Positions 3,238-59,687 of a stretch of 64,000 bases of DNA are shown one piece after another. The stretch covers positions 42,415,883 to 42,479,882 of the forward strand of contig OZ024879.1 in NCBI GenBank assembly GCA_964017185.1. Reading direction: 5' to 3'. The translations under genes were made by a program, and so were the position numbers. The first letter of the stretch is position 1. The number at the start of each line of letters is the position of its first letter. This DNA comes from Rugalucina vietnamica. Taxonomy: Eukaryota > Mollusca > Bivalvia > Lucinida > Lucinidae. The notes under the pieces are model-generated. The model made no database searches, was not told the origin of the DNA, and saw only the letters and a program-made list of their open reading frames with translations.

Positions 3238-3655
3238 TTAAAAAGGTACAAGTAGGCAACGATCAGGAAAAGGCTCAATCAGAAAAAGATTCCCACTGCA
3301 AAAAAATTTAACTAACAATCAGGTACTTATATTATGAAAACATCGTAAGCCAAATGAGCAGCCATTTTCCCAATAGGTGGCCACTCAGTTACCCAAACTT
3401 AACTAAAGATATGATAACATACATAAGGCGCCAACAGCACAAATAAATTAAACATCAAGACATAAACAATAAGAGCCACCACAAAAATATTGCCTTGGAA
3501 CGATCAGTAATATACAATTACTGGCGGGCTTAAACCGGTATTACAGTTACTAAACCTCACCCGTAGCGTCTGCAGTGGTTCACAACTTTTAGTTAGTTGT
3601 TCGGTCCTCGTGATGAATCTCTAACTAGTCAATGAATCCTCATGGACAAACAAAA
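3238..3655 (-). mobile_element. Naiad 3' end fragment (N1)
   Basis: Minus-strand copy of the 3' untranslated region of the full Naiad at 18007-18640. It keeps the end signature (GATCAGGAAAAGG...TCAATCAGAAAAAG in plus orientation), the CAGTAATTGTATATTACTG hairpin region and the ACCGGTTTAAGCCCGCC block. It interrupts the left terminal repeat of the 3160-5209 element. Confidence 0.8.
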
Positions 3656-4424
3656 AACCTGAGTTGAGGTCAAGGTCACAGACTCTGAAATTTTATGTTA
3701 AGATTTTGGGTTAAAGTCTATATGTCTTGAATATGTAGATGGATCAAGTTGATACTTTGCATGTTGGTAGATGCCAGAAAGGACATCGAATTTACCGGAA
3801 GGGACCTATATTTTTTATCCCAGGCCAATTTAATTGTGTTTGTGTTTGCAAATGGTGTAGACTGATGTGAAAAGAAGCTACATCAAAAAATCTGCAGTAT
3901 CTGAGCTATTTTATATCTATCAGAAACTCGATAGTCGCGGAAGGGGGGGGTTGCAACGGGTCTCTTATTCTACCTAATACTAAATACTGGGTCATTCTGC
4001 TAAATCGAATAAGAATAGATGAATAGTTCATTGTTTAAAGGGGAAATTAGAGACACATACAGCCACGGTCATCGAGAAAAACGAGTGCAGCAGACTATGT
4101 CACATCAAGGTTTGTCTCCGGTATGTATCGAGATCGGTATTGCTGCTGTCGTAGAGATATGTTGGTATTATTACCATATTTTGTGCCTATCCAATGTCTT
4201 GTCTGAAAACCACAAATATAGGAACATCAAAATGAATCAAAAGCATGACGTATTAATGTTTATTGTACATTTATTAACATGGTCAGACAGTAGTACATGT
4301 ACACACAAAACGAGCACATTTGCTTTTCGCTGTTTATAGATAGTGCCTTTAATCGAATCTTCCTGTTTTTAGCTGAGCAGATCGGTTTGGATCTCATTGG
4401 TCGGAGAGAATCATTTAATTTTAT

Positions 4425-5128: not shown

Positions 5129-5212
5129 AACCAAAAACTTTAACATTTGAGCAACGCGAACGCCGAGGTGATTGCAATAGCTCTTCCTGTACTTTCTCAC
5201 AGGCGAGCTAAA

Positions 5213-5487
5213 CAGCGAGATGGGGAAAAAGTAAAATGACAATTGGGTACTTATACTAAGAAAACAAAACGTAAGCCGAGTGGTCAACTATTTCCCAATA
5301 GGCAGCCATTCAGATGCCCGAACTAAACAAAAAACAATGAAAACATACGTAAGGTTCAAATAGCTTTAAAAGTCTACTCCAGAACATAAAACAAATAGAA
5401 CCACAACAGAAGTATCGCCTAAGAACGATCAGTAATATAAAATTAATTGGGGGGCTTAAATCGATTTACAGGGTCCTAACTTCAAAG
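5213..5487 (-). mobile_element. Naiad 3' end fragment (N2, diverged)
   Basis: Minus-strand fragment of the Naiad 3' region with the conserved hairpin block (AACGATCAGTAATATAAAATTA) and a TTAAATCGATTTA palindrome. It abuts the right end of the 3160-5209 element. Confidence 0.7.
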
Positions 5488-6830: not shown

Positions 6831-6926
6831 TGTTGGAATAAATATTCTAATAAACCAAATGCCACACGCTTCTGAAACACGTCCGAAAAATCAAAAGGCG
6901 CAATACTCATGACGTCAACGTCACTT

Positions 6927-7560
6927 AAAGCTATTCGTTTTAGTTGGTTGGGGTTGGAGCTTCTTGTCTGTTGCTTGGCCAACCGAGGTCCAACTGGTGT
7001 TTTTCTTTTGCTCCGGAGTTAGTAAGTTATTCGGCGCCCATGGATCTCCATCGAAGGGCAGCTTCTTCAATCTGTGAGTCCTGGTTTTTGATTCATCAGG
7101 ATGTTTATAATAAATTATTCCTTTGTTCTTGATGATTCATTGACTAGTTAGGGATTCACCACGAGGACCAAAAAACTAGCTAAATGTTATGACACACTGC
7201 AGAAGCTGACGGTGAGGTTATGGCCATGTAAAACCGGTTTAAGCCCGCCAGTAATTTTGTGTTACTGAACGTTCCAAGGCGATACTTCTGTGGTGGTTCT
7301 TTTTGTTTTATGTCTTTGTGTTTAAAATGTTTTTTTTTTTTTTGCTGTTGACGTCTTGTGTATGTTTTCATAGTTAAGTTTAGGTAACTGAGTGGCCACC
7401 TATTGGAAAAATAGCTGCTCATTCGGCTTACGGTATGTTTTCATGGATAAGTACGGTACCTGATTGTTAATTTAGTTTTTCCCAACTCGGTTTTTGGAGT
7501 GGGAATCTTTTTCTGATTGCGCCTTTTCCTGATCTTTGCCAACTTGCACCTTCTAGCATG
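6927..7560 (+). mobile_element. Naiad 3' end fragment (N3)
   Basis: Begins at the position equivalent to the stop codon of the full Naiad (TAAAGCTATTCGTTTTAG) and runs to the CCTTTTCCTGATCTTTGCC end. It contains AAACCGGTTT (7231-7240) and the hairpin CAGTAAT/GTTACTG (7249-7267). A 5'-truncated copy with no coding sequence. Confidence 0.85.
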
Positions 7561-9626: not shown

Positions 9627-10252
9627 CAAAAACCGAGGTGGGAAAAAACTAAATTAACAATTAGGGCCCAGTTGTTCAAAATTAACAACATCGTTAGTTA
9701 AAGATTCGTTAAATTTTCAAACATGACTATTACAAATACACTGTTATTTTTGTTGAAAAATATGTGAGAATCCTTTGCTACACTGTTATTTTTTGTTGTA
9801 AAATGTGAGAATCCTTTGCATTGCAAAGGATTCTCACATTTTTTTCAACAAAAATAACAGTGTATTTGCTTATGTAGTCGGCATTTTCTTAACGAGTTGA
9901 GGTCTTAACGATGACGTTAAGCTAAAGACGTTTTGAACAACTGGCTCCAGGTACTTATACCATGAAAACATATCTTAAGCCGAATTTGCAGCTATTTTCC
10001 CAATAGGTGGCCACTCAGTTACCTAAACTTAACTAAAATATGATAACATACATAAGGCGCCAACAACACAAAAAAATTAAACACAAAGACATAAAACAAT
10101 AAGAACCACCACAGAACGATCAGTAATATAAAATTACTGCCGGGCTTAACTCGATTTTACATGGCCATAACCTGACCCTCATCGTCTGCTGTGGTTCACA
10201 ACATTTAGTTAGTTGTTCTGTCCTCGTGGTGAATCTCTAGCTAGCCATCACG
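9627..10252 (-). mobile_element. Naiad 3' end fragment (N4) holding a nested MITE
   Basis: Minus-strand Naiad 3' region (AAAACCGAGGTGGGAAAAAAC at one end, GGTGAATCTCTAGCTAG at the other). It is split after AACAATT by the element at 9667-9950, and the Naiad sequence resumes at AGGTACTTATACCATG. The order of insertion is therefore Naiad first, MITE second. Confidence 0.8.
9667..9950. mobile_element. MITE with GGGCCCAGTTGTTCAAAA-type termini and internal palindrome
   Basis: Left end GGGCCCAGTTGTTCAAAA, right end TTTTGAACAACTGGCTCC. The interior is almost wholly palindromic: ACACTGTTATTTTTTGTTG... paired with ...CAACAAAAATAACAGTGT around GCATTGC near 9820. Part of the arm is repeated once more at 9738-9780. 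No coding sequence. Confidence 0.8.
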
Positions 10253-14410: not shown

Positions 14411-14952
14411 ATTTTAGAGTTGGTGCCAGCCTATGGAGTGCAAAAAACTGTTCCCCAGATCTTGGTTAAAAGAGTCCAAAGGCCTACGCCTTGATCTCAT
14501 TGATAATGAGTCAGTTGCTATCTCATAATCGGCAGTGGCATCAATTTTCATTTGATCCGAGCATCCAAGCTTTTTTCTGACTATTTTATAGGCTGTCGAT
14601 TTGTTGAGACCTGTTGCCTCAATCACTTTTTGTCATAGCTTGTCAATGCTGAAATATAATTTGCCTCTATGCTTCTCAAGCTTGAAGTAAAGATAGGTGT
14701 TAAAATATTTCTTCAACGCTTATCTTAAAACTTTGCATTTTGAAAAGGCCAACTGTCACGAGTAGTTTTCAATGATACTTGTAAAAAAGATTAGGAATTA
14801 CATTAACTCCCCTTAGGTTGCATGCCGCGTCTACTGTACGGATTCCTCATTCAACTAACAATTTTCAAAATTTATTACCTACTGTAAGGGTGACACCTCT
14901 TAATTTATTTTCGGCATCTACTGTTAATCTACACGGAGCTTCTAATTCTAAT

Positions 14953-17900
14953 ATGTTTCGTAATAATCTTCAGATTAGGTTATCTTCACTCAAATCACCA
15001 ATTTTACGTAAATATATTAATCCGTTCAAGAGACCTGGAATGTACCCTAGTATTTCTAAGTGCAATGCCAAGAAGTGCAACTGTTGCAATCATTTATGCT
15101 TTAAGACTACTATCACTTCATCTGTGAATGGTAGGACATTTTCAGTGGTTAATGATTCTGATTTAGACTGAAAATCAATGGATCTTGTATATGTTCTTAC
15201 TTGAAATACAAACAATTGTAGGATGCAATATGTTGGACAAACTTGTCGAACTTTGCAAAAACGATTTGGTGAGCACTATCGTAGAATCAGAAAGCCCAAA
15301 AATAATGATACCTTTCTGTACCAGCATTTTAAGCGCACTGGTCATTCTCCCAATGATGTTAAAGTTCAACCAGTGGAGAAAATCTCATATGATGAAAATT
15401 CTTCAGTTAGATTCAAAAACATTAAACGATTTGAAACTGAACTTAAATGGATAAAATTACTGCAAACACCCTTTCCACTGGGATTTAACGACAACATTTA
15501 CCATGAAGGCAATATTTCCAAAATGCCCGATTTTGATGTACTTACACTTTCGGACTCTCGTAAACGTAAATCTAGATCTCATGGTATACGGAAAAAGGGT
15601 AATGACAAACGTAAACGGTGTGCTGCATTGAAATTGAACATTTCTCTTAATGATTTAGCTGTTAAACTAAGGATTCACGGTCGACATCCAATGCTGTCGT
15701 ATCTTAGTTCTCTACCTATTGCTGCATTACGTTCCTTGGACACAGAGGCTAATAGATTTTACGATAGAAATCATCAAATGTATGACGCTGCACTGTTAAC
15801 AAGATGTTATACTCAGCATGCTCTTCGTCCATTTATCGATTCCGAATCTAATCACATTAGAAGTTTTATTAAAATTCCTTTCATCAATAAAGGAATTGAC
15901 TTTATTGATTTACCAAGCATATTCCAGGATAAATCAGTGATACAGTCTATACCTACCTACTTCCAAAATTCAGAACCTCCTATTATTTGTTACAAATATA
16001 ACAAACCAATCAGAAATACAATTTTTAATTTCAATAAACTTGTTTCTGATCTTGATATCCATGCTAATACTCCTAAGTCTTGAGATTGTAAAGATTCAAA
16101 ATATGTTTATCAACCCGCTGGACATATTGTTACTGGAAATTTAAAAATAATTTCGGATTCTAGAATTCGCAAAATTGTTTCTAAAGGTCCGAAATATAGA
16201 TTCCCTTCCTACATTAATTTCGACAAATGTAGAGAGGAGATTTCATCTGCATTAAATGATTTCGGTTATCGATGGTGTAAACGAGAGGGTGTTGAGGATA
16301 ATGCTCTTAAAGAATGGAAAAGAAGTATCTTCACTTTTGTGGATAAACGTATTAAGTTTAATTCACAAAATACTAATCTTTTACCTCCTAAACCCAAATC
16401 GTCATTTAGGCATTTGAAGCAGGGTATCCAAGAATTTCATAGAAAGTATGTCTTGGTTCCGGCAGATAAAGCCGCAAACAATGTTGTTGTCGTTTGTAGG
16501 CTTCACTACGTTAACACCTTAAAACAGGAGCTTGATGGTACCAGGGCTTATCTGGAGACATATACTGATGAGGTGTCTGTAGTTAATGCCCACTTAAACG
16601 ATTTACCTGTTAAGTTTTCTGTTTGTGTCAATGAAGGCCAAGACAAACTTCCTACGATGTATTGGTTACCTAAGCTTCACAAAAGACCATACAAAGCTAG
16701 ATTTATTGCAAATTCTAGCTCTTGTACTACCACTGAACTTTCTAAATTATTAACTTCCTGTCTTACTGCTATCAAATCTCATGTTATAAGATACTGTGAG
16801 ACAGTGTATGAAACTTCAAATAAAAATTGGTTTTGGTCAATTAAAAATTCTGGTGAGGTGCTCAGTAAATTGAAGTGTAGAGGGTTCCGTGCGACAAGCT
16901 TGTCTACATATGATTTTTCTACTCTGTATACAACATTACCACATAATCTAATTAAAGAAAAACTTCTGGATTTGATAGAGTGGACCTTCAAAAGGGCATT
17001 AAAAAACTATGGTTCACTTTATTTGGCATGTAATGACAGAAAGGCTTTTTTCACTTCCTCTGACCAAAGTCGGTATACACTTTGGTCATGTCAGAATGTA
17101 TGCGACGCCTTATCCTATCTCCTTGATAATATTTATATTAGATTTGGGACCAAGTTATACAGACAAATTGTTGGAATTCCGATGGATACAAATTGCGCAC
17201 CTCTCTTGGCTGATTTATTTTTATACTGCTACGAAAGAGATTTCATGGATTGTCTTATCCATGATAATCAAGCTGATGTTATCGAGGCTTTTAATTCCAC
17301 ATCTAGGTACCTCGATGACCTTTTGAACATTGACAACCCTTATTTTGAAGGTATGGTCAATCAAATTTATCCACCTGAACTTCAGTTGAACAAAGCCAAT
17401 ATCTCAGATACTGAAGCCCCCTTTTTAGATCTACATCTTTCTGTTGCAAATGGATTTGTTTCTTCTAAAATTTATGACAAGCGCGATGACTTTGATTTTG
17501 ATATAGTAAATTTTCCTTTTTTGGATGGTGACGTTCCTCGTCGTGCTTCTTATGGTGTATACATTTCGCAACTTATTAGGTTTGCTCGAGTCTGCAATCA
17601 TGTTACAGACTTCAACGCTCGAAATAAATGTTTAACGGCAAAACTTCTCCAACAGGGCTATCGGTATCATAAACTTCGAAAAACATTTTCTAAATTTTAT
17701 CGTAGACAATATGAATTGATTTCCAAATATAATGTTGGGTTAAAGACGCTTTTAAGTGAGGGCCTTTCGGAACCTGAATTTTATGGTGACTTGGTTTACA
17801 AATTTAAGAAACTTAAAGGAATTAATGATTTTTCTTTTCAGTTCAGAAAAATCATAACACGTTACAAACGTATAGGTTATAACTTGAATGTTATGCGACA

Positions 17901-18006
17901 GTCTGCATGCTTAGTTTTTAACCCAATCATGGTTGATAACTATGCTGCCTTCTTTAATTGCACGCCGGTACGTCGGGCGTCAGACTCTATGATGGCCCCG
18001 ACATAA
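14953..18006 (+). CDS. Naiad polyprotein: GIY-YIG endonuclease plus reverse transcriptase, with three in-frame UGA codons
   Basis: Read from the first in-frame ATG (14953), the frame has 1017 codons interrupted only by UGA codons 73, 84 and 377. Residues 37-45 hold a cysteine cluster (KCNAKKCNCC). UGA 73 and UGA 84 bracket the GIY-YIG core (VYVLT near 79-83, then YVGQT at 93-97), at positions that are cysteines in related PLE endonucleases. UGA 377 sits in U-D-C, replacing the first cysteine of the CxC linker motif. The RT begins around residue 490 (VPADKAANNVVVVC), has LPKLHKRPYKARFI near 572, motif A TYDFSTLYTTLP with Asp 654, motif B GIPMDTNCAPLLADLF, and motif C YLDD at 786-789. All segments lie in the same frame, with no other stops or frameshifts. 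Literature on Naiads reports clam selenoprotein versions with several selenocysteines, so I read the UGAs as Sec. Ordinary nonsense mutation is the alternative. The nuclease and RT would act in target-primed insertion. Confidence 0.8.
15169..15171 (+). other. In-frame UGA, candidate selenocysteine 1
   Basis: Context DLD-UGA-KSMDLVYVLT. In related endonucleases a cysteine precedes the VVYLL-type strand by about six residues. Confidence 0.65.
15202..15204 (+). other. In-frame UGA, candidate selenocysteine 2
   Basis: Context VYVLT-UGA-NTNNCRMQYVG. The canonical pattern here is VY.L.C..C..QYVG, so the codon replaces the first cysteine of the pair. Confidence 0.7.
16081..16083 (+). other. In-frame UGA, candidate selenocysteine 3 (CxC linker)
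   Basis: Context TPKS-UGA-DCKDSKYVY. Reading UGA as Sec gives U-D-C, equivalent to the CxC motif of N-terminal-endonuclease PLEs. The frame is then open for 640 codons. Confidence 0.7.
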
Positions 18007-18640
18007 AGCTATTCATTTTAGTAGGTTGGGGCCGGAGCTTCTTGTCTGTTGCTTGGCCCACCGGGGTCCAACTGGTGTTTTTCTTTTGCTCCGGAGTTAG
18101 TAGGTTATTCGGCGCCCAGGGATCTCCATCGTCGGGCAGCTTACTCAGTCTGTGAGTCCTGGTTTTTGATTCATCAGGATGTTTATCATGATTTATTTGT
18201 TTGTTCTTGATGATTCATTGACTAGTTAGAGATTCACCACGAGGACCGAATAACTAACTAAATGTTATGAACCACTGCAGAAGCTGAGGGTGAGGTTATG
18301 GCCATGTAAAACCGGTTTAAGCCCGCCAGTAACTTTGTGTTACTGATCGTTCCAAGTCGATACTTCTGTGGTGGTTCTTTTCGTTTTATGTCTTGGTGTT
18401 TGAAAAATTTTTTGTGCTGTTGGCGCCTTATGTATGTTTTCATATTTTTAGTTAAGTTAAGGTAACTGAGTGGCCACCTATTGGGAAAATAGCTGCTCAT
18501 TCGGCTTACGATATGTTTCATGGTATAAGTACCTGATTGTTGGTTTGGTTTTTTTTCCCACCTCGGTTTTTGGAGTGGGAATCTTTTTCTGATTGCGCCT
18601 TTTCCTGATCTTTGCCTACTTGTACCTTTTTGTACCTTCT
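18007..18640 (+). promoter_or_regulatory. Naiad 3' untranslated region with conserved RNA structures
   Basis: The region shared by the truncated copies contains a palindrome AAACCGGTTT (18309-18318), a hairpin CAGTAAC-TTTGT-GTTACTG (18327-18345), and a longer imperfect hairpin around CTATT-GGGAA-AATAG at about 18477-18492. I could not draw a canonical SECIS (paired RUGA/NGAN core with apical AA). A weak possibility places GTGA at 18289 against TGA at 18343, but the intervening bases do not pair well. Confidence 0.55.
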
Positions 18641-18874
18641 TGTACAGAAGTTATACAGATGTGTGTATGTGGTTATGTAAGAAAATTTTAAGAACGGAGC
18701 GCTTCAGTGCATTCATACTGATAAAATAAAGTAAAATAAATTAAGTACAGGTCCGTGTTTCAGATATACAAAAGATCTTTGGAAACACCTGTTCCATTAC
18801 TAAGAGCGGTAGCGTGGGAATATGGGTCCGCGCCCTTTGGGGCATTATGAAGAAAGTACTTGTGCCTCCAGACA

Positions 18875-19110
18875 AAGCTTATACGCTACTGACTGACTAC
18901 TGGCTAACCGCTCAGGTCTGAGCCTGCCCAGCATTTATGGTTCAACCCAAACCATTCATACATATACGCTATATTGGTTTAGTTTGGTGGTTATGTATTT
19001 GAAACATTTTTGGATGTAGTGGCATCCTAATTTGGATACAAGTCCCATAAAATGAAGTCCACGTCCAGACATGACCAGACTTAAAGCATCAAAACCAACA
19101 AACAAAACAA
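18875..19110 (+). repeat. R3 retroposon, copy g
   Basis: R3 segments ACTGGCTAACCGCTCAGGTC, CTGAGCCTGCCCAGCA, GTCCCATAAAATGAAGTCC and the CAAACAAAAC tail. Confidence 0.7.
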
Positions 19111-19735: not shown

Positions 19736-20002
19736 AAAAAGGTACAAGTAGGCAAAGATCAGGAAAAGGCGCAATCAGAAAAAAGATTCCCACTCCAAAA
19801 AACCGAGGTGGGAAAAAACCAAACTAACAATCAGGTACTTATACCATGAAAATATATCGTAAGCCGAATGAGCAGCTATTTTCCCAATAGTTGGCCACTC
19901 AGTTACCTAAACTTAACTAAAAATATGAAAACATACATAAGGCACCAACAGCACAAAAAATTTAAACACCAAGACATAAAACAAAAAGAACCACCACAGA
20001 AT
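19736..20002 (-). mobile_element. Naiad 3' end fragment (N6)
   Basis: Minus-strand end region from GGTACAAGTAGGCAAAGATC to AAAGAACCACCACAGAA. It is truncated before the hairpin block. Confidence 0.8.
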
Positions 20003-23331: not shown

Positions 23332-23982
23332 GGCCCGTACCGGACCCGGATTAGAATAGGCCGGTCGCTCCCTCATGCGGAACCGTAAAACCCGGTCAAA
23401 AGAGGTGCCACCTGTTTGCCGTGGGTGGATACCCGTAAGCCGGAGAAGAGGATCCTGGAGGTTGAGGGACAGGCCAGAGATCTTCACCTGTCTCAACACG
23501 CCTCTTTGGCCTCGGATTCGGTGTAAACGGGAGGCCGTGGAGGCTCGACACGGTCAGTCGGCTGCCATGCCTTGCCCTGAGATCTCTTCTTCCTTCTAAC
23601 TTTTTCAGTATCGAATGATACGCAACCGTGTTCCAAATTTCTTCATTTAATCATCCTTTTCCCTATATCTCAGAAGGCGGTGGTTTAAGGGTCAATCGAC
23701 GGGCTTGTTTTTCGGTATTTCTGGGTTACTTGGGTCTAGGTTGAGAGGCAGGGTGGGTACAACGTCTGAATGTTATTTCGGTTTTCTTTATTAGACATCT
23801 GACTTAATATTCATTTGTTGTTAAAGCTTGGGTAGTCTGAAGTACTTTGAAATCTTGCACGGCGAGTATGACGGGTATGTAGCTTTGGCGCTGGAAACTG
23901 GAGAGCCGTTTCCGTATAGCGTCCCCTTGTAGGGCTCCAAGGAGGGTGAAGCGCATAGCCGTCGAGACTTAAAACTAAAAAA

Positions 23983-25206
23983 ATGGATTCAATTGCACAC
24001 AAACGACAACGACCGGACTCCGACGACGATATAGACGCTTCGACACTGTTTAGAGCACAAGAAAATTTTCCAAAGTTTATTATTATTGAGTCAACAAACA
24101 AAGAAACACAAGTTACATCACTGTCACCTTTCGTTATTGAGAAACAAATTGAATCTATGATAGGCACACCAAAATCTGTGAAGAAATTAAAAAACGGAAC
24201 ATTGTTAGTAGAAACAACAAGGAAAATGCAAACAGATATTCTTTTAAAATCAAAAAAGTTCTTCAATCTACCAGTAGAGGTTAAACCACACAAAACTCTA
24301 AATTCTTCCAAAGGCATAATCAGAGACAGAAATCTCAAAGGAGAATCGGAAAAGAACATACTCGAGTACTTGGAAAATCAAGGTGTTACAGCAGTAAAAC
24401 GCTTCACAGTTAAAAAAGGACAAGACACAATCAACATGAATACTCTTCTTTTAACATTTGACTCAGTTGTACCACCTAAATCTCTGAAAATCTTTTATCA
24501 AATTATTCCTGTCGATCTGTACATACCAAATCCTTTGAGATGCTTTAACTGTCAGAAATTTGGACACCATGAGGACAAATGCCCAGTTGACCCCGGGTCA
24601 GTCTGTGAAAGATGTGGTATGGGAAACCATGACCATCATACAAATCACTGCAAAAACCCCACAAAATGTGTCAACTGTGGCGGAGCGCATCTATCACGGT
24701 CAAATGAATGCGAAACATGGAAGAAGGAAAAAGAAATCATGCGATTGAAGATAACAAAGAACTTGACATATCTTGAAGCTCGAAAACAACTTGAACAGAA
24801 GCCTGAATTTAGTTTCTCACATATAGTCAAATCACTTGCTGCCAAACCAGAAACCAAAACAGCTGCTACACAATACAGTGTCGAAGACTGTAAGATTACA
24901 GAGAGTTCAAAAGTTCTCATTGCGAGGAAACCAAACAGAAACAATAATTCTCAAAATCAGAACGTAACATCAAGCAAATCTCTGTCAGAACAAGCCAAAG
25001 TTAGTTCAAAACCAAACCAACCGAGTACAAACGCAAAACCACATTCTGCATCCAGTAGGGTGCAGAAGGGATCAGATGATCCCGTCCAACAGTATAACAA
25101 ATTTGGAGCTCTGGCTAATGACGATGCCATGGAGATGGACGAGGTTGCCTCGCGCCCTGGTTCCCGTGGCCATCGTCCTCGGTCACCAATCACAGCTCCA
25201 AAGTAA
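23983..25206 (+). CDS. LINE ORF1: nucleic-acid-binding Gag-like protein
   Basis: A 407-residue protein starting MDSIAHKRQRPDSDDD. It binds RNA in the LINE ribonucleoprotein. Residues about 30-170 form an RRM-like segment seen in I- and Jockey-group ORF1 proteins. Three zinc knuckles follow, beginning near residue 187: CFNCQKFGHHEDKC (CX2CX4HX4C), CERCGMGNHDHHTNHC (CX2CX4HX6C) and CVNCGGAHLSRSNEC (CX2CX3HX6C). The C-terminal 130 residues are polar (Lys, Ser, Gln, Asn rich) and end in RPRSPITAPK. The stop (TAA) lies 62 bp before ORF2, which is in another frame, so ORF2 is probably translated by reinitiation. No frameshift or internal stop. Confidence 0.9.
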   Translation: MDSIAHKRQRPDSDDDIDASTLFRAQENFPKFIIIESTNKETQVTSLSPFVIEKQIESMIGTPKSVKKLKNGTLLVETTRKMQTDILLKSKKFFNLPVEVKPHKTLNSSKGIIRDRNLKGESEKNILEYLENQGVTAVKRFTVKKGQDTINMNTLLLTFDSVVPPKSLKIFYQIIPVDLYIPNPLRCFNCQKFGHHEDKCPVDPGSVCERCGMGNHDHHTNHCKNPTKCVNCGGAHLSRSNECETWKKEKEIMRLKITKNLTYLEARKQLEQKPEFSFSHIVKSLAAKPETKTAATQYSVEDCKITESSKVLIARKPNRNNNSQNQNVTSSKSLSEQAKVSSKPNQPSTNAKPHSASSRVQKGSDDPVQQYNKFGALANDDAMEMDEVASRPGSRGHRPRSPITAPK

Positions 25207-25268
25207 AAGTTTCCAGTCTACATTTAAACAAAAGGTCACGCATTTAAATCTCCTCTCTAAATTATTTA

Positions 25269-28200
25269 ATGGGTAGCAAATATAAAATAATAGAATGGAA
25301 CTGTCGAGGTGTAAAACCACGTTTTGAAGAACTACTACTTCTTTTGTCACTACTTAGACCTTCTGTTTTCTGTCTTCAAGAAACTTTCCTCAAACCTAAT
25401 GACAAGTTTACTTTGAAAGGCTTTAATATTTACAATCACATACACTTGGATTGTCTACGAGCATCTGGTGGAAGCTCTTTACTTGTCCATTCAACATTAC
25501 CACAACGTCAAATTAAACTTAAAACGGATCTACAAGCGGTAGCTGTTTCTGTTACACTCGAGAAAGAGATAACTTTCTGCTCAGTCTATATCCCTCCCTC
25601 TTATCTTTTAAAATCTGAACAACTTACTTCTTTACTTCAACAGCTTCCTTCACCCTATATGTTGGTAGGTGACTTCAATGGTCACAATGTGCTTTGGGGT
25701 TGTAATGACAATGATCCCAGAGGAGAATTAATCGAGGATTTCATCACGAAAAACGACATTTGTTTGATGAATGATAAATCTAACACTTATCTAGATTCTG
25801 GTAAAGGCACATTCTCATCCCTTGATCTTTCACTCTGTCACCCCTCTCTCTATCTTGACTATGACTGGTCTGTTTGTGAAGATCAACGTGGATCTGACCA
25901 CTTTCCAATTTTGATTGAAAGCGTTCAGACTCATGATGAAGCCCATAATCCCAAATGGAAATTGAATAAAGCAGATTGGGATTTATTTCATACTTTATGT
26001 AATGAGTCCCTTACTGATACTTTTCTCTCTGATTCTTCTGATCCTATAACTGACTTCACCTCTTCTTTAATAAATATATCTGAGAAATGTATCCCCAAAA
26101 CCTCGACGAACCCAAAGAAAAGTAACCCATGGTATAATGACGATTGTAAAGAAGCTATCAAACAACGGAAAGACACTTTGTCGAAGTTCTGCAAGTTCCC
26201 AACGCATGAAAATTTAAATAGTTATAGGAATTCTAGAGCAAAAGCCCGTCGGACTATAAAGTCTGCAAAACGCAAATCATGGAGAACATATGTTTCGAAT
26301 TTGAATTATAAAACACCGATTAAAAAGGTTTGGGACATGGTTAGGAAAATATCCGGAAAATCTAAATCTGCTCCTCTTCACCATCTTAATTACAATTTCA
26401 ACAATGCGAACGAAACAGCTTCCACAAAACAAGATATAGCAGATACTTTGGCATCACAATTTTGTTCAAATTCCTCAACCAGCCATTACTCGGAGGAATT
26501 TCAAAAATACAAGAAACTACAGGAAAAGACTAAGTTAAACTTTAAGTCCTCAAATAATGAAGAATACAATACTCCTTTTAATTTGGATGAACTAAAAGAC
26601 GCCATCAGTAAAGCCCATGATACAGCAACAGGTCCCGACGAAGTTCACTATCAAATGTTAAAACATCTTCCACCAAAATCACTTCTTGCTCTCTTAGATA
26701 TATTTAATGATATGTGGGAAACTGGAAAGTTTCCCGAAAGTTGGGAACTAGCCACTATAATACCAATTCCTAAACCTGGAAAAGACCATGCAGAACCTAA
26801 CAGCTATAGACCGATAGCACTTACAAGTTGTCTTTGCAAAACTTTAGAGAGAATGATAAATGTAAGACTTGTTTGGTACTTAGAAAGTAATAACCGAATA
26901 TCTCCTGTTCAGTCGGGCTTCCGTTCTGAACGAAGTACCAACGACAATCTAGTAAGACTGGAAACCTTTATTCGTGATGCCTTTGTTGCAAAAGAGCATG
27001 TTGTTGCTGTGTTTTTCGACTTGGAAAAAGCTTATGATACCACCTGGAGACATGGTATTATGCGAGATCTACATGATCTCGGAATACGAGGCAGATTAGC
27101 TACATTTATCGAAAATTTCCTTGCGGATCGTTGGATCCAGGTTCGTGTTGGATCGACTTTATCCGAAAAGTTCGACCAAGCACAGGGTGTCCCACAAGGG
27201 AGCATCTTGTCTACAACATTGTTCAATATTAAGATAAATAGCATAATGGATTGCTTGGATCCTAAAACAGATGGATCATTATATGTAGATGATTTCTGTA
27301 TGTGTTACAGGTCAAAAAGTATGAGAACTATCGAAAGGCACTTACAGCAGTGCATCAACAGAATAGAAAACTGGGCCTCACATAATGGTTTCAAATTTTC
27401 CAAGTCGAAAACTCAATGTTTACATTTTTGTCAACTACGGAAAGTACACAATGATCCCGAACTTTATTTATATGGTTCTCTTATTCCAGTAGTTGAAGAT
27501 TTTAAATTTCTTGGAGTTCTTTTTGATCGTAAACTTTCTTTCATTCCACATATCAAGTATTTAAAAGCCAAATGCCTGAAAGCGTTGAACTTACTGAAAG
27601 AATTATCACACACAGACTGGGGTGCTGATCGCACTGTCCTTCTCCAGCTATACCGTTCCCTCATTCGTTCAAAATTAGATTATGGATCCATCGTATATGG
27701 ATCGGCAAGACCATCATATATCAGTTCTCTTGACACAGTGCATCATCAAGGCCTAAGATTAGCTCTGGGTGCTTTTCGAACATCACCTGTACAAAGCCTC
27801 TATGTCGAGGCTGAAGAGCCATCTCTATATTTACGACGAGAGAAACTTGCCCTACAGTACGCCATTAGAATTGCTGCTAATCCATCAAATCCAGTTCATA
27901 AGGTGTCTTTTCCGCCATATATTTCTGAAGAAGTCGTACAGCTTTACGAAAGTAAACCAAAGGCTATCCGGTCCTTTGGTTTACGGGTTGCACCACTTTT
28001 AGAATCAGCAAACATCCAAAAAGATAAAATAGAAGAACATTTTGTTTCCGAAATACCATCATGGTGCATTAGAAAACCAGAAGTTAATTTGACTCTACAT
28101 ACAAGGAAAAAATCCGACTCAAATCCACACCTTCTAAAAGAAAGTTTTCATCAACTACAATCTCAATTTATTGACTATCAGTGTATTTATACTGATGGTT

Positions 28201-28979
28201 CAAAAGAAGAAAACAAAGTTGGTTGTGCTACTTTTACAAACGGCAATTGCAAAACATTACGTTTACCTGATGGCTCTTCAATTTTCACAGCGGAAGCTAA
28301 AGCTATAGACTTAGCTTTAGACTTCATAAATGAAAGTAACTTAAAGGACAAATTTATTATTTTTTCTGACTCTTTGTCAGTTCTACAGGCCTTAAACCAT
28401 ACATCATCCAAAAACCCTCAAATACAAAAACTATTAATAAAACATCATACCATCTCGGAATTGAAAACAATTATCTATTGCTGGGTTCCCAGTCATATAG
28501 GTATATATGGAAATGAGAAAGTTGATAAGAACGCTAAAGAATCGTTAAATCTAGAAGAAACCGTTTTTAAAATTCCTTATGTCAATTTTAAACCTTTTAT
28601 TAACGAGTACATCTCTGAAAAATGGCAAACAATCTGGAACGGAGCGAAGTTTGATAAATTGAGGGAAGTAGAACCGATCGTTAAACGACCAAAAGCAATT
28701 CATAAACTTTCGAGACGAGAAGAAATCGTTCTTGCTCGTCTCCGAATTGGTCATACAAGAATAACACATTCCCACTTATTAAAGCGAGAAGATGAACCTA
28801 AATGCATTGGCTGTGATACACCATTCACAGTTAAACACTTTCTTTTAGAATGCACTGACTTTACAGCAGAGCGAATTTCTTGTTTTCAAGCTAATAACTT
28901 GAAAGAATTGTTCAAAGATGTACCCGTTGGAAAGATTTTATCATTTCTTACACAAGTAAATCTGTTTTATAAAATATAA
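25269..28979 (+). CDS. LINE ORF2: AP endonuclease, reverse transcriptase, RNase H
   Basis: A 1236-residue protein. The apurinic-type endonuclease shows EWNCRG (residues 9-14), QETF near 38, VGDFNGHN and SDHFPIL. The reverse transcriptase shows NSYRPIALTSCLCKTLERM, QSGFRSERSTNDNL, FFDLEKAYDT (catalytic Asp), QGVPQGSILSTTLFN and YVDD (residues 672-675; most relatives have YADD). RNase H follows with YTDGSKEE, FTAEAKAIDLAL, FSDSLSVLQAL and WVPSHIGIYGNEKVDKNA, so all acidic positions are present. The C terminus has CIGCDTPFTVKHFLLEC, a Cys-His motif (CX2CX7HX4C) common in this group. It should nick the target, prime synthesis from it and remove RNA. No lesions are visible in the frame. Confidence 0.92.
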   Translation: MGSKYKIIEWNCRGVKPRFEELLLLLSLLRPSVFCLQETFLKPNDKFTLKGFNIYNHIHLDCLRASGGSSLLVHSTLPQRQIKLKTDLQAVAVSVTLEKEITFCSVYIPPSYLLKSEQLTSLLQQLPSPYMLVGDFNGHNVLWGCNDNDPRGELIEDFITKNDICLMNDKSNTYLDSGKGTFSSLDLSLCHPSLYLDYDWSVCEDQRGSDHFPILIESVQTHDEAHNPKWKLNKADWDLFHTLCNESLTDTFLSDSSDPITDFTSSLINISEKCIPKTSTNPKKSNPWYNDDCKEAIKQRKDTLSKFCKFPTHENLNSYRNSRAKARRTIKSAKRKSWRTYVSNLNYKTPIKKVWDMVRKISGKSKSAPLHHLNYNFNNANETASTKQDIADTLASQFCSNSSTSHYSEEFQKYKKLQEKTKLNFKSSNNEEYNTPFNLDELKDAISKAHDTATGPDEVHYQMLKHLPPKSLLALLDIFNDMWETGKFPESWELATIIPIPKPGKDHAEPNSYRPIALTSCLCKTLERMINVRLVWYLESNNRISPVQSGFRSERSTNDNLVRLETFIRDAFVAKEHVVAVFFDLEKAYDTTWRHGIMRDLHDLGIRGRLATFIENFLADRWIQVRVGSTLSEKFDQAQGVPQGSILSTTLFNIKINSIMDCLDPKTDGSLYVDDFCMCYRSKSMRTIERHLQQCINRIENWASHNGFKFSKSKTQCLHFCQLRKVHNDPELYLYGSLIPVVEDFKFLGVLFDRKLSFIPHIKYLKAKCLKALNLLKELSHTDWGADRTVLLQLYRSLIRSKLDYGSIVYGSARPSYISSLDTVHHQGLRLALGAFRTSPVQSLYVEAEEPSLYLRREKLALQYAIRIAANPSNPVHKVSFPPYISEEVVQLYESKPKAIRSFGLRVAPLLESANIQKDKIEEHFVSEIPSWCIRKPEVNLTLHTRKKSDSNPHLLKESFHQLQSQFIDYQCIYTDGSKEENKVGCATFTNGNCKTLRLPDGSSIFTAEAKAIDLALDFINESNLKDKFIIFSDSLSVLQALNHTSSKNPQIQKLLIKHHTISELKTIIYCWVPSHIGIYGNEKVDKNAKESLNLEETVFKIPYVNFKPFINEYISEKWQTIWNGAKFDKLREVEPIVKRPKAIHKLSRREEIVLARLRIGHTRITHSHLLKREDEPKCIGCDTPFTVKHFLLECTDFTAERISCFQANNLKELFKDVPVGKILSFLTQVNLFYKI

Positions 28980-32397: not shown

Positions 32398-33235
32398 CAA
32401 AAAGGTACAAGTAGGCAAAGATCAGGAAAAGGCGCAATCAGAAAAAGACTCCCACTCCAAAAACCGAGGCGGGAAAAAACCAAACTAACAATCAGGTACT
32501 TATACCTTGAAACATATCGTAAGCCGAATGAGCAGCTATTTTCCCAATAGGTGGCCACTCAGTTACCTTAACGTAACTAAAAATATGAAAACATACATAA
32601 GGTGCCAACAGCACAAAAAATTTTAAACACCAAGACATAAAACAAAAAGAACCACCACAGAAGTATCGACTTGGAACGATCAGTAACACAAAGTTACTGG
32701 CTGGCTTAAACCGGTTTTACAGGTACCTAACCTCACCCTCAGATTCTGCAGTGGTTCATAACATTTAGTTAGTTCTTCGGTCCTCGTGGTGAATCTCTAA
32801 CTAGTCAATGAATCATCAAGAACAAACAAATAAACATCCTGATGAATCAAAAACCAGGACTCACAGATTGAGTAAGCTGCCCGACGATGGAGATCCCTGG
32901 GCGCCGAATAACCTACTAACTCCGGAGCAAAAGAAAAACACCAGTTGGACCCTGGTGGGCCAAGCATCAGACAAGAAGCTCCGGTCCCAACCAACTAAAA
33001 TGAATAGCTTTATGTCGGGGCCATCATAGAGTCTGACGCCCGACCCACCGGCGTGCAATTAAAGAAGGCAGCATAGTTATCAACCATGATTGGGTTAAAA
33101 ACTAAGCATGCAGACTGTCGCATAACATTCAGGTTATAATCTATACGTCTGTAACGTGTTATGATTTTTCTGAACTGAAATGAAAAATCATTAATTCCAT
33201 TAAGTTTCTTAAATTTGTAAACCAAGTCACCAACA
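32398..33235 (-). mobile_element. Naiad 3' fragment including the end of the ORF (N7)
   Basis: Minus-strand copy covering the whole 3' untranslated region and the last 71 codons (33010-33225: GINDFSFQFRKIITRYRRID, LVFNPIMVDNYAAFFNCTPV, SDSMMAPT), nearly identical to the full element. Its high identity suggests recent activity of the family. Confidence 0.9.
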
Positions 33236-34288: not shown

Positions 34289-34699
34289 TTCCTAAAACAA
34301 TGTATTTATTTAGTGCTATATGGGACTTTGACTTTGCTAGCAAACAATGGTGCTTAATGGTTAAATAAATATTCTAAATGGAAAAGAAGCTCTAAAAGGC
34401 TTCAGAAACATTGTAAAAAAGAAGTCATAACTCGTATGGGCAATGGCTTCTTTTTTCACTAAGATTTCCACTGTCACTATAATTTAGAATGGAATGAACG
34501 CAAACCGAAGTTTGAAGTCATTTGAACCTACAGTGACACGAGTTCCGAAACGGAACTGTAGCTCTTCTGAAGTAATGCCTGGTCTGCAAATTAAAGTGGT
34601 AGGGTAGGGTAGGATGGAGACGTTCCACGAGCTACATCTTATGGTATTTATATATCTCAGCTTATTCGATATGCTAGGGTATGTTCTCATGATGACGAT

Positions 34700-35710
34700 T
34701 TCAACTCAAGAAACTAGAACTTAACGGCAAAACTTCTTAATCAGAGTTATCGGTATCACAAACTCCTAAACGCATTTTCAAAATTTTGTAGACGTCACTC
34801 TGATTTGGTTTCTAAATTCAACATGGGACTTAGGTCTCTTCTATTGGGCAGGCCTGTCGGAACCTTAATTTTATGGTGACTTAAAAGTATAAATTCCATA
34901 TAATCATGGGTCAGAAAGAATTTCTCTGATCAATTCAGGAAAGTAGTAAGTCGTTATAAAAGAATAGGATACGATATGAATATTATAAGACAAACTGCAT
35001 GCATGGTGGTTAACCCATTCACGGTTAACAACTTTGCTTGGCTCTTTAATTGCATGCCGGTGGGTCGGGATTCCGACTAAATAATGGTTCAGCCCTAAAT
35101 CTTATATGTATGTTGGCCTTGACCTGATGCTCCGTCTTTGGTCGGGACCGCCGGGGTTTTATTGTCTGATTTCTGTTGCTCTGGCTATGAGATTGGTTGT
35201 TGAGTACTTGTCTCTGTTATTGTCAGTACAATCTGTTTCGTGTGTTCACTGATTTTTATCATTGATGAGTTGAAGTCCTTCATGTGAACCGAACAAATTC
35301 TATGTTAACAGATGTCATGGCGGAACTGATGGTGAGGTTGCGGCCGCGTGAAACCAGGTTTAAACCCACCAGTAATTTATTACTGACCGTTCCAAGTCTG
35401 TGGTTCTGCTGTTTTCTTTCACTTGTTTGTTCGCCATATTTGTTTGTTTAGCCTGAATGTAAATTTTGTTTGGGTTCCCTGTGGACACCTGCTGGGAAAG
35501 AGCTGTCCGCTTGACTTCTCACTTGTGCTCGTCTTGGTTACTGTGGAGATTCTGTGCCTGTCCCTTTCGCGCATGTGTTTGGGATAGGAAGTGGGATTTG
35601 ATTGTATCGATTCCTAAGCTTCACCGTTTTTACTTTGAACCGGACCTGACCATTTTTGGAATGAACTATCATAATGTACCAAATATCTTTCTGTCAGCTA
35701 TATTTCAATA
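34700..35710 (+). mobile_element. Diverged Naiad fragment, second subfamily (N8)
   Basis: The plus strand matches the end of the Naiad ORF at roughly 70 percent by eye (TTAACGGCAAAACTTCTTAA, TATCGGTATCACAAACTCC, then a tail reading AACTTTGCTTGGCTCTTTAA), with several frame breaks. The 3' untranslated region shares GGTGAGGTTGCGGCCGCGTG, AAACCAGGTTT and the hairpin CAGTAAT/ATTACTG at 35370-35385. Confidence 0.75.
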
Positions 35711-39239: not shown

Positions 39240-39530
39240 TTACAATTACAAGGCGATACTTCTGTGGTGGTTCTTTTTGTTTTATGTCTTGGTGTTTAAA
39301 AAAATTTTGTGCTCTTGGCGTCTTATGTATGTTTTCATATTTTTAATTAAGTTAAGGTAACTGAGTGGCCACCTATTGGGAAAATAGCTGCTCATTCGGC
39401 TTACGATATGTTTCATGGTATAAGTGCCTGATTGTTAGTTTGGTTTTTTCCCACCTCGGTTTTTGGAGTGGGAATCTCTTTCTGATTGCGCCTTTTCCTG
39501 ATCTTTGCCTACTTGTACCTTTTTATTTCT
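39240..39530 (+). mobile_element. Naiad 3' end fragment (N9)
   Basis: Plus-strand, from AAGGCGATACTTCTGTGGTG to GATCTTTGCCTACTTGTACC. It is truncated just after the hairpin block and lies in the foldback interior. Confidence 0.85.
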
Positions 39531-39904: not shown

Positions 39905-40290
39905 GTTTTTGGCATTAAATGTTATGAACTACTGCAGAAGCTGAGGGTGAGGTTATGATCATGTAAAATCGATTTAAGCCCGCCAGTGATTTTATATTAC
40001 TGATTGTTCCAAGGCGATACTTCTGTTGTGGTTCTTTCTGTTTTATGTCTTGGTGTTGAATTTTTGAGCAGTTAGCACCTTATGTGCGTTTTCAATATTT
40101 TTAGTTAAGTTTGAGTGGCTGAGTGGCCACCTATTGGGAAAATGACTGCCCATTCGTCTTACATTATGTTTTCTTAGTATAAGTACCTTATTGTAAATTT
40201 AGTTTTTTCCCACCTCGGTGTTTGGAGTGGGAATTATTTTCTGCTTGCTCCATTTCCTGATCGTTACCTACTTTTACTAATTACTCTTTC
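39905..40290 (+). mobile_element. Naiad 3' end fragment (N10, diverged)
   Basis: Carries the compensated palindrome AAATCGATTT (39966-39975) and hairpin CAGTGAT-TTTAT-ATTACTG (39984-40002), followed by the common 3' end. Confidence 0.85.
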
Positions 40291-49890: not shown

Positions 49891-50009
49891 AATCATTCTT
49901 TTTATAATAGTTGAGAGAAACATCAGCGAATAGATCTCCGCTTAGTAAAGTTCAATATTGTTCTACACTGGGGCTATGAAAAGCAGATATGCTGCATGAG
50001 CCTTCATTA

Positions 50010-50312
50010 CAAGAAGACAATGATCAGGAAAAGGCGCAATCAGAAAGAAATTCCCACTCCAAAAACCGAGGTGTGAAAAACTAAACTGACAATTAGCTAT
50101 TACGGTTAGAAGACATATCGTAAGCCTAGCGAGCAGCTATTTCCCAATAGGCGGCCACTAAGTTACCCGAACTTAAATGAAATATGAAAACGTACAAAAG
50201 GTTCAAACAGTACAAAAATTCTAGTCCAAAACATAAAACAAATAGAACCACAACAGAAATATCGCCTTGGAACGACCAGTAATATAAAATTACTGAGGAG
50301 GAGGGCGCTTCT
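50010..50312 (-). mobile_element. Naiad 3' end fragment (N11, diverged)
   Basis: Minus-strand end region with CAGTAATATAAAATTACTG intact. It ends where GGAGGAGGGCGCTTC begins. Confidence 0.75.
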
Positions 50313-53740: not shown

Positions 53741-53788
53741 TGAATATTCATGGCGCTCCTAAATGGGATGTAAGCAAGTCTCAAGAAG

Positions 53789-54694
53789 ATGGTGAAGAAG
53801 AAGGTGAGACTCAGTTCACATATCCATTTCTTAGAGAAATGTTATAAACAATCACTAATTCCAAAAGGGTTCAGTTGGAAATGGAGGTTAAATCTTGATG
53901 TAGATGAGACTTTTATTAAGAAAATTGAAAACATTAAAAGGGATGCCTCTCTAAAACTGATGGAGATTAGTCTTAAAGCATACCAAGAAAAACTGAGTGA
54001 GTGCATAGACCAAATAGAGTCAATCCAAAACAATGACAGTATTAACCACTGCGACGAATCGACACATGAAATTAGTCAAATGGCTGACGCAGACAGGAAA
54101 TGCAAAGCTAGGAAGTTAAAGAAATTACAAGATACAGCCGTTTTGAACGAGCCGTACTCTGCAGTTAGCACACAATGTGACAACAAGGTTTTCAAGGAGT
54201 ACAGGGTCAAAGGGGACGGCAACTGCTTCTACCTCTGTCTGAGCAAGTATCTCTATGGTGAAGAAACAAAACACACTCAGATCAGGAATAATATTGTAAA
54301 TTACATGGATCAAAACAGACATCTATACTCCCAATATGTAGACGGGAATATGGAAGACCACTTGCTAGTGCAAAGAAGTACAGATGGACAGTCTTCATCG
54401 TATGCCACAGAAGCAGAATTATTTGCAGCTGCAGACAGATACAGACTAAATGTATTGGTTAAAAGTTCAGTACAGAAGGATTCAGGTTGGAATGAACACA
54501 AGCCCACGGTTAAGGGAAGAGGTTGCAGGGAGATAAGGTTACTACATAAGAATGAACATTTTAACCTGCTGGAGGTGTCAGGGAAAGAGGAAATGCAAAT
54601 TGAAGAAAAAACAGAGACAAGGGTTAGGTTAGGAGGTAGGGAAGCAGATGTGCAGAAGATTGGATTTTCAATATGGCTACCTGAGTTTGACTGA
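53789..54694 (+). CDS. OTU-domain cysteine protease ORF of a repeat-flanked element
   Basis: A 301-residue protein; an in-frame TAA just upstream (near 53768) supports ATG 53789. Residues 10-75 hold HIHFLEKCYKQSLIPKGFSW and a helical stretch SLKLMEISLKAYQEKLSECI, similar to what I recall from N-terminal parts of Penelope-like polyproteins. The OTU domain covers about 135-265: KGDGNCFYLCLSKYL with Asp 143 and catalytic Cys 146, ATEAELFAAADRYRLNVLV near 205-225, and LLHKNEHFNLLEV with His 257. OTU enzymes cleave ubiquitin chains; the cluster here is complete, so activity is plausible. The last codons (FSIWLPEFD) are shared with the left repeat. No reverse transcriptase is present. A non-autonomous element or captured host OTU gene are the two readings. 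Confidence 0.75.
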   Translation: MVKKKVRLSSHIHFLEKCYKQSLIPKGFSWKWRLNLDVDETFIKKIENIKRDASLKLMEISLKAYQEKLSECIDQIESIQNNDSINHCDESTHEISQMADADRKCKARKLKKLQDTAVLNEPYSAVSTQCDNKVFKEYRVKGDGNCFYLCLSKYLYGEETKHTQIRNNIVNYMDQNRHLYSQYVDGNMEDHLLVQRSTDGQSSSYATEAELFAAADRYRLNVLVKSSVQKDSGWNEHKPTVKGRGCREIRLLHKNEHFNLLEVSGKEEMQIEEKTETRVRLGGREADVQKIGFSIWLPEFD

Positions 54695-56739: not shown

Positions 56740-56945
56740 GGGTTAATCCAATAAGCAGGTTAATCCAATAAGCACATAATATAGAATGTCCAGATTGTTT
56801 CACAAACATGTAGGGGGTGCAGGTTAATCCAATGAGCACACAATATCGAATAACTAGATTGTCTCTTACAGTCAGTCACCAGTGTAGGGGTGCAAGTTAA
56901 TCCAATGAGCACACAATATCGAATATCCAATTTGTTTCTTCTTGC
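56740..56945 (-). repeat. Tandem repeats in the 3' region of the LTR element
   Basis: Three imperfect units containing GTTAATCCAATRAGCAC and ACACAATATCGAAT, about 60-75 bp apart. The Gag ORF ends inside the first on the minus strand. Confidence 0.75.
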
Positions 56946-59038: not shown

Positions 59039-59687
59039 TTTGACTGCTTTGGCTGGAGCTTGTGGTTAGCACTCAGAAATTTGTTCCACGGTGCAATGTC
59101 AAAAAATCAAAATTTATCATATTCAAAAGTACAAGCCAAAATTTAAGAATTTAGAAAAATCAAGAAAAATATCCAAAGCTTCTTCTAAATTTATTTTCAA
59201 AGAAAATGTGCAAAATTTGCAACAATTTATGATTATATTTCCAAAACCATGAAAAATCAATACAACCATTGGATATCACGTTTGTCTGTGCAAAATCCCT
59301 GTGCAAAACAATCGGTCTTTATCCCCTTGTATGTCTTTCTCTCAAGGTCAAAGAAATTTTCTAAGTTTAAATTCTTTTTATGAATAACTTGCTTGGCTTG
59401 TGAAAATTAGCTGTATAATTTTGTAGCCTGAAATGATGAAAAATTTGTGTGCTTTTTAGAATAGGCTAAATTTTGCCAAAGGTGAAAACATTAAAAATAT
59501 GCAAAAATACAAAAATATGAAGTTTCCACAATCTGCATTTAATCTGCACCTGAATATCACGGTCCGATTCCCGTAGACTTCCTCAATACGCTGAATGGCC
59601 GGTCTTTATTCCCCTGCAAATAAACTCAGATCACGAAAACTAATGACAATTCCAAATTTCCAGAAATTCACAGGTTACCGAGTTTTG

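Follow-up and report, generated by a model that had tools for sequence, protein, structure and literature searches.

Penelope-like retroelements whose endonuclease lies at the N-terminus, ahead of the reverse transcriptase (RT), reportedly make up the group called Naiads. These elements are further recognized by a CxC motif in the linker, a CCHH set in the endonuclease, tandem copies or pseudo-LTRs, the lack of a canonical hammerhead ribozyme, an insertion-in-fingers domain of the RT, and a microsatellite insertion bias. Naiads of spiders and clams are said to have become selenoproteins with several selenocysteine (Sec) residues, and mobile elements that depend on Sec are rare. A limited literature search returned no paper pairing Naiad or Penelope-like elements with selenoproteins or selenocysteine. 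Here, we describe a family of such elements in the clam Rugalucina vietnamica, starting from one copy in a 64,000-nucleotide stretch of contig OZ024879.1 (the window). It is highly probable, in our view, that the single protein of this family is a selenoprotein with three Sec residues, produced by host decoding of UGA codons 73, 84, and 377 with one SECIS element straddling the stop codon. The family resembles the selenoprotein Naiads of clams and spiders in having an N-terminal GIY-YIG endonuclease followed by the RT, tandem copies, and several UGAs that would be read as Sec, a likeness drawn from the general description of those elements and not position by position.

The open reading frame occupies positions 14953..18006 of the forward strand, on which the features below also lie unless stated otherwise. 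As the earlier note had claimed, and as both frame reading and copy comparison confirmed, it comprises 1017 codons interrupted by three in-frame TGA codons, at codon 73 (15169..15171), codon 84 (15202..15204), and codon 377 (16081..16083), with neither TAA nor TAG before the terminal TAA at 18004-18006. A blastn search with the unit of a tandem locus (L006) placed the surrounding element at about 14784..18634 (14784-18048 at 99.2% identity and 17981-18634 at 98.0%), truncated at its 5' end by approximately 380 nt relative to that unit. The N-terminal 165 amino acids (P0002), with cysteine placed at the UGA codons, matched the GIY-YIG endonuclease family PF01541 over codons 78-137 (15184..15363; 27.6 bits, cut-off 22.6); a Pfam scan of the full-length protein gave nothing above the cut-off, GIY-YIG included. 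Codons 32-178 aligned with the endonuclease of L067, a canonical Penelope-like element of the same genome (E 2e-11), and codons 500-914 (16450..17694) aligned with its RT in a tblastn comparison (E 2e-13), with the motifs YDFSTLYT at codon 653 and RYLDDL at codon 785. The endonuclease thus precedes the RT in one open reading frame, the opposite of the order in L067 and in a second canonical element, L068. Copies of the family stand head-to-tail at a spacing of 4226 nt (e.g., C11:53183930, 53188156, and 53192382), and no canonical hammerhead ribozyme was found in 20 loci (L001-L020 of 30 full-length loci), where only the SECIS_1 model reached its gathering score. Because the endonuclease and RT are permuted, the copies are arranged head-to-tail, and hammerhead matches are lacking, we assign the element to the Naiads; on the group's usual definition, it fits a Naiad-type Penelope-like retroelement whose copies are very abundant.

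The two canonical elements, L067 (C14:2316200-2320450) and L068 (C13:41585000-41589250), have C-terminal endonucleases and long open frames, with tandem matches at a spacing of about 3.9 kb. Within the window, further 3'-end pieces of the Naiad family lie at 3239-3657, 5210-5484, 6923-7552, 9948-10247, 19736-20001, 32399-33232, 39246-39529, 39916-40277, and 50008-50295, with 77-98% identity to the tandem unit, a range that points to activity of the family over a long time. The window also holds, at 23959-28979 on the forward strand, a non-LTR retrotransposon whose first long open frame has 415 codons and CCHC-like knuckles recognized by eye and whose second has 1243 codons and Pfam matches to endonuclease and RT. 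An open frame at 53774-54694 (forward strand) matches an OTU-like cysteine protease (33.3 bits, cut-off 23.3), and a 722-codon open frame at 56897-59065 on the reverse strand has no Pfam match at E <= 0.001.

The residues expected at the UGA codons were assessed by aligning the endonuclease with 16 GIY-YIG sequences of the same genome, several of which belong to the same families, leaving approximately 6-7 independent lineages. Column 73 is cysteine in 13 of the 16 (the others being L071 with Gln, L082 with Ser, and L081, which is rearranged and has a stop there), and columns 84 and 89 are cysteine in 15 of 16; column 125 is histidine in 15 of 16, column 131 in only 6 of 16, and columns 37, 42, and 45 are cysteine in 14, 14, and 15. 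L071, which we take by eye to resemble a host SLX1-type gene, is without these endonuclease cysteines. The proposal that the UGAs occupy cysteine positions of the family therefore held for codons 73 and 84, judged against other Penelope-like and GIY-YIG sequences, while for codon 377 it relies on the CxC reported for the linker of Naiads in general; the U-D-C at codons 377-379 equals CxC only if Sec is counted as cysteine. The description of the first two UGAs as flanking the GIY-YIG core needed correction: the GIY-like motif VYV covers codons 79-81 (VYVLT at 79) and the YIG-like YVG codons 93-95 (YVGQT at 93), so codon 84 lies between them, within the module, whereas codon 73 precedes codon 84 by 11 residues. 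The CCHH set of the endonuclease is present as U84, C89, H125, and H131, with putative Sec in place of the first cysteine. U84 would thus open the C/C/H/H set 84/89/125/131, and U73 appears to group with cysteines 37, 42, and 45. In each of the three clusters (37/42/45/73, 84/89 with histidines 125/131, and 377/379), a single cysteine gives way to predicted Sec, and the residues of these clusters may be ligands of zinc or another metal. The protein has 32 Cys/Sec positions, three of them UGA, and random placement would put all three on conserved or motif positions with P ~0.01, counting 8 of the 32 as such, two of which (the CxC) come from the general motif; within the endonuclease alone (nine positions, six conserved), the corresponding probability of 0.42 is no evidence.

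The three TGA codons are a property of the family and not the decay of a single copy. In our first whole-genome search, 45 copies were scored out of 33,543 first-look candidates, and every one was full length; 44 carried exactly three TGA codons and one carried four. A set of 30 full-length loci, picked by similarity (protein score), was fetched; it includes the window copy and represents 24 distinct coding sequences. All 30 had TGA at codons 73, 84, and 377, without any further stop in the frame. Queries bearing cysteine at the relevant codons gave the same picture: both endonuclease TGAs were present in 148 of 150 scored matches to a 78-aa query (1,483 candidates), and the linker TGA was present in 149 of 150 scored matches to an 80-aa query (2,152 candidates). 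The three exceptions, CGA (Arg) at codon 73, TTA (Leu) at 84, and TCA (Ser) at 377, are ordinary decay. No cysteine-coding copy occurred among the 150 endonuclease and 150 linker matches scored, although, with cysteine-bearing queries, a copy differing only in its cysteine codons would have come out on top. The UGAs are thus kept across the copies scored without UAA or UAG at the same codons, a comparison proposed in the earlier note, and the observations that would have spoken for chance nonsense mutations, namely cysteine codons in other copies and no SECIS in any of them, were sought and neither was made among those copies. Chance nonsense was accordingly judged unlikely, given the same three TGAs across copies and the SECIS at the end of the frame. 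Since the copies are young and closely related, the shared TGAs mostly reflect what was carried by the lineage that spread and do not amount to many independent tests. A cysteine-type Naiad in the same genome, sought from a divergent piece in the window (described below), yielded only similarity in a 3'UTR segment, with no open reading frame at the two places read. Relatives were not confirmed among viral contigs (5 and 36 stretches fitting a pattern) or contigs of prokaryote genomes (150 stretches), and solved structures gave a single match at E 0.36, with no relative found.

The youth of most copies leaves room for a different origin of the shared stops, in which the lineage is dead, the UGAs are its nonsense mutations, and an intact relative copies its RNA in trans. 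Such stops could all be inherited from one master, and tandem and truncated copies are indeed common. We nonetheless consider this very improbable, as no cysteine-coding copy appeared among the scored matches, all three stops are UGA, a SECIS lies exactly at the end of the frame, and purifying selection is seen in the codons that separate and follow the UGAs. The selection test used 30 loci (28 distinct) chosen by codons 57-134 only, some of which overlap the first set of 30, against an expectation of about 2.9 nonsynonymous variants per synonymous one. Among variants shared by more than one copy, 21 were synonymous and nine nonsynonymous in codons 135-376 (P 4e-7), and 21 and five in codons 378-634 (P 6e-9); for single-copy variants, the corresponding ratios were 28:43 and 34:26. 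Variants in codons 1-56 (shared 2:0, P ~0.06; single 7:8, P ~0.05) were too few to prove selection. Of these 30 loci, 25 extend to codon 377, all with TGA there, and one additional nonsense codon was seen, at codon 159 in L036. The full-length set gave 107 synonymous versus 50 nonsynonymous variants among loci picked by protein score. These counts show that purifying selection has maintained codons lying between and beyond the UGAs. Live copies are predicted to make the full-length protein. The window copy itself differs from the majority by four synonymous and 13 nonsynonymous codon changes, a near-neutral pattern, and is probably a dead member of a recently live family. As it is both 5'-truncated and drifting, the selenoprotein claim concerns the family and not this copy.

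The element required for Sec decoding was found at the end of the frame. A SECIS covering 17981..18048 matched the Rfam model SECIS_1 at 37.0 bits (gathering score 35; E 1.1e-4 in the 8 kb searched), with its AUGA core at 17989, an AAA loop, GA on the 3' side, and the stop codon at 18004-18006 inside it. Its 52-nt core folded better than all of 200 shuffled sequences (z -3.1). The earlier note had expected a SECIS in 18007-18900; a SECIS is present, but it starts before the stop codon and overlaps the end of the frame, so that its 5' arm and its core AUGA are coding sequence. The element reached the Rfam cut-off in all 20 loci tested of the 30 full-length ones; the one in L011 is displaced 292 nt downstream, beyond a junction that cuts the SECIS at that locus's own frame end. 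Across the whole 64-kb window, only one other SECIS match was found at E <= 0.05, at 32968-33035 (34.2 bits, just below the cut-off), at the 3' end of a second copy of the family on the reverse strand (32399..33232). Like animal selenoprotein genes, the family thus combines in-frame UGA codons with a SECIS_1-type SECIS; ordinary animal SECIS elements sit in the 3'UTR, whereas here coding sequence forms the 5' arm and the element encloses the stop codon, and the product is a polymerase and nuclease rather than a redox enzyme.

The host genome carries genes for the tRNA that would decode these codons. Two tRNA-Sec genes scored 79 and 71.2 bits against an Rfam cut-off of 47, with 22 weaker matches below it, and ARAGORN called both tRNA-Sec(UCA); at least 16 further SECIS matches scored at least 39.3 bits among the 150 scored of 42,234 candidates. 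On this basis, we propose that the SECIS-reading machinery of the host and tRNA-Sec(UCA) would decode UGA 73, 84, and 377 as Sec, that the single SECIS on the mRNA would serve all three, and that translation would end at UAA 1018. Sec 73 and Sec 84 would then take the place of cysteines that are conserved in the GIY-YIG endonuclease, with the third Sec in the linker U-D-C. Read-through of the UGAs by a near-cognate tRNA, encoding a residue other than Sec, would likewise leave the frame uninterrupted and subject to selection. We give it hardly any credence, given the SECIS and the tRNA-Sec genes and the cysteines found in relatives at columns 73 and 84; moreover, a C directly after UGA favors read-through, and the bases following UGA 73, 84, and 377 are A, A, and G. 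The Sec reading is therefore supported for the family, Sec insertion itself being a prediction.

Two further accounts are compatible with three-Sec decoding; one concerns the purpose of the Sec residues and the other their origin. Several UGAs in one message are expected to lower the yield of full-length product, and here a single SECIS serves three of them, two of which come before codon 85. Sec decoding could therefore act mainly as attenuation, in which codon 73 or 84 halts the majority of ribosomes, so that the element limits its own protein and its activity follows the selenium supply with no special chemistry of Sec. This account does not require the UGAs to fall on conserved or motif cysteines, the placement noted above as improbable by chance, and we regard it as possible but on the unlikely side. 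A near-neutral ratchet, in which one-step changes from TGC or TGT to TGA are tolerated at a few cysteines once a SECIS is present, would suit the small share of UGA among the Cys/Sec positions (3 of 32) and the single step that the change takes. The location of the UGAs at conserved positions and the lack of any reversion to cysteine among the three exceptions speak weakly against it; we hold it as a tentative, minority view. If the clusters carrying the predicted Sec residues are metal sites, they could form zinc-selenolate sites, with endonuclease activity or stability tuned by redox state or selenium, a coding and stop-containing SECIS that gates translation, and retrotransposition that depends on selenium, a chain that we consider speculative and rather improbable.

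A divergent, decayed Naiad 3' end at 34612..35132 (forward strand, 57% protein identity) bears on the age of the SECIS arrangement. Its alignment to the window copy is gap-free from the final codons as far as the SECIS loop, and it carries a degenerate SECIS-like stretch at the same place, with AUAA replacing AUGA and CUGAU on the far side. This stretch was not recognized by Rfam, and its core folded no better than shuffled sequences (z 0.38). The shared layout no more than hints that the overlap of SECIS and stop codon predates the split between the two. The part of the 3'UTR that matches the UTR of the divergent copy across the genome, at 18266..18384, contains a palindromic octamer at 18298-18305 that covaries among aligned copies. 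Of 74 aligned copies, a number that includes some double counts from overlapping loci, 72 had a perfectly palindromic octamer; eight distinct forms occurred, six of them palindromic. In a hand-picked alignment from which the non-palindromic copy at 5484-5376 was missing, the figure was 15 of 16. Its central four bases vary from GGCC to GATC or GTAC with self-complementarity kept, and a hairpin cannot account for an octamer whose center changes and yet stays self-complementary. Pairing of two RNA molecules (dimerization) or binding of a protein dimer to the DNA palindrome could explain this pattern. Next to the octamer, AAACCGGTTT also occurs as AAATCGATTT. RNAalifold on the segment gave a covariation term of 0.1, with changes on both sides in 2 of 26 pairs, so that covariation support for the fold it proposes is weak. 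A twister ribozyme in the 3'UTR was considered from twister-P1 matches of 20.8 bits (18314-18378, forward strand) and 24.4 bits (32648-32712, reverse strand), far below the cut-off of 67.2; as the divergent copy has no twister match at E <= 1, the matches are probably due to chance and this reading was dropped.

Naiads with several Sec residues are reportedly known already, and the present family adds structural detail and a test bed. The details in question are the overlap of SECIS and stop codon, the single predicted Sec in each cysteine cluster, and the covarying palindrome in the 3'UTR, which we describe without claiming that they are absent from print. With both endonuclease UGAs kept in at least 148 copies, the family is a natural experiment on why Sec would occupy what look like structural cysteines, and the same copies bear on whether selenium supply limits a transposon. 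The canonical elements L067 and L068 have a homologous RT and endonuclease with cysteine at columns 73, 84, and 89 and histidine at column 125; they differ in having the endonuclease after the RT, cysteine instead of Sec, and no UGA in the frames read. Such cysteine-bearing Penelope-like elements, covering two of the three positions in the same genome, offer a ready comparison, and the SECIS that overlaps the stop codon is compact and would be an easy subject for reporter assays.
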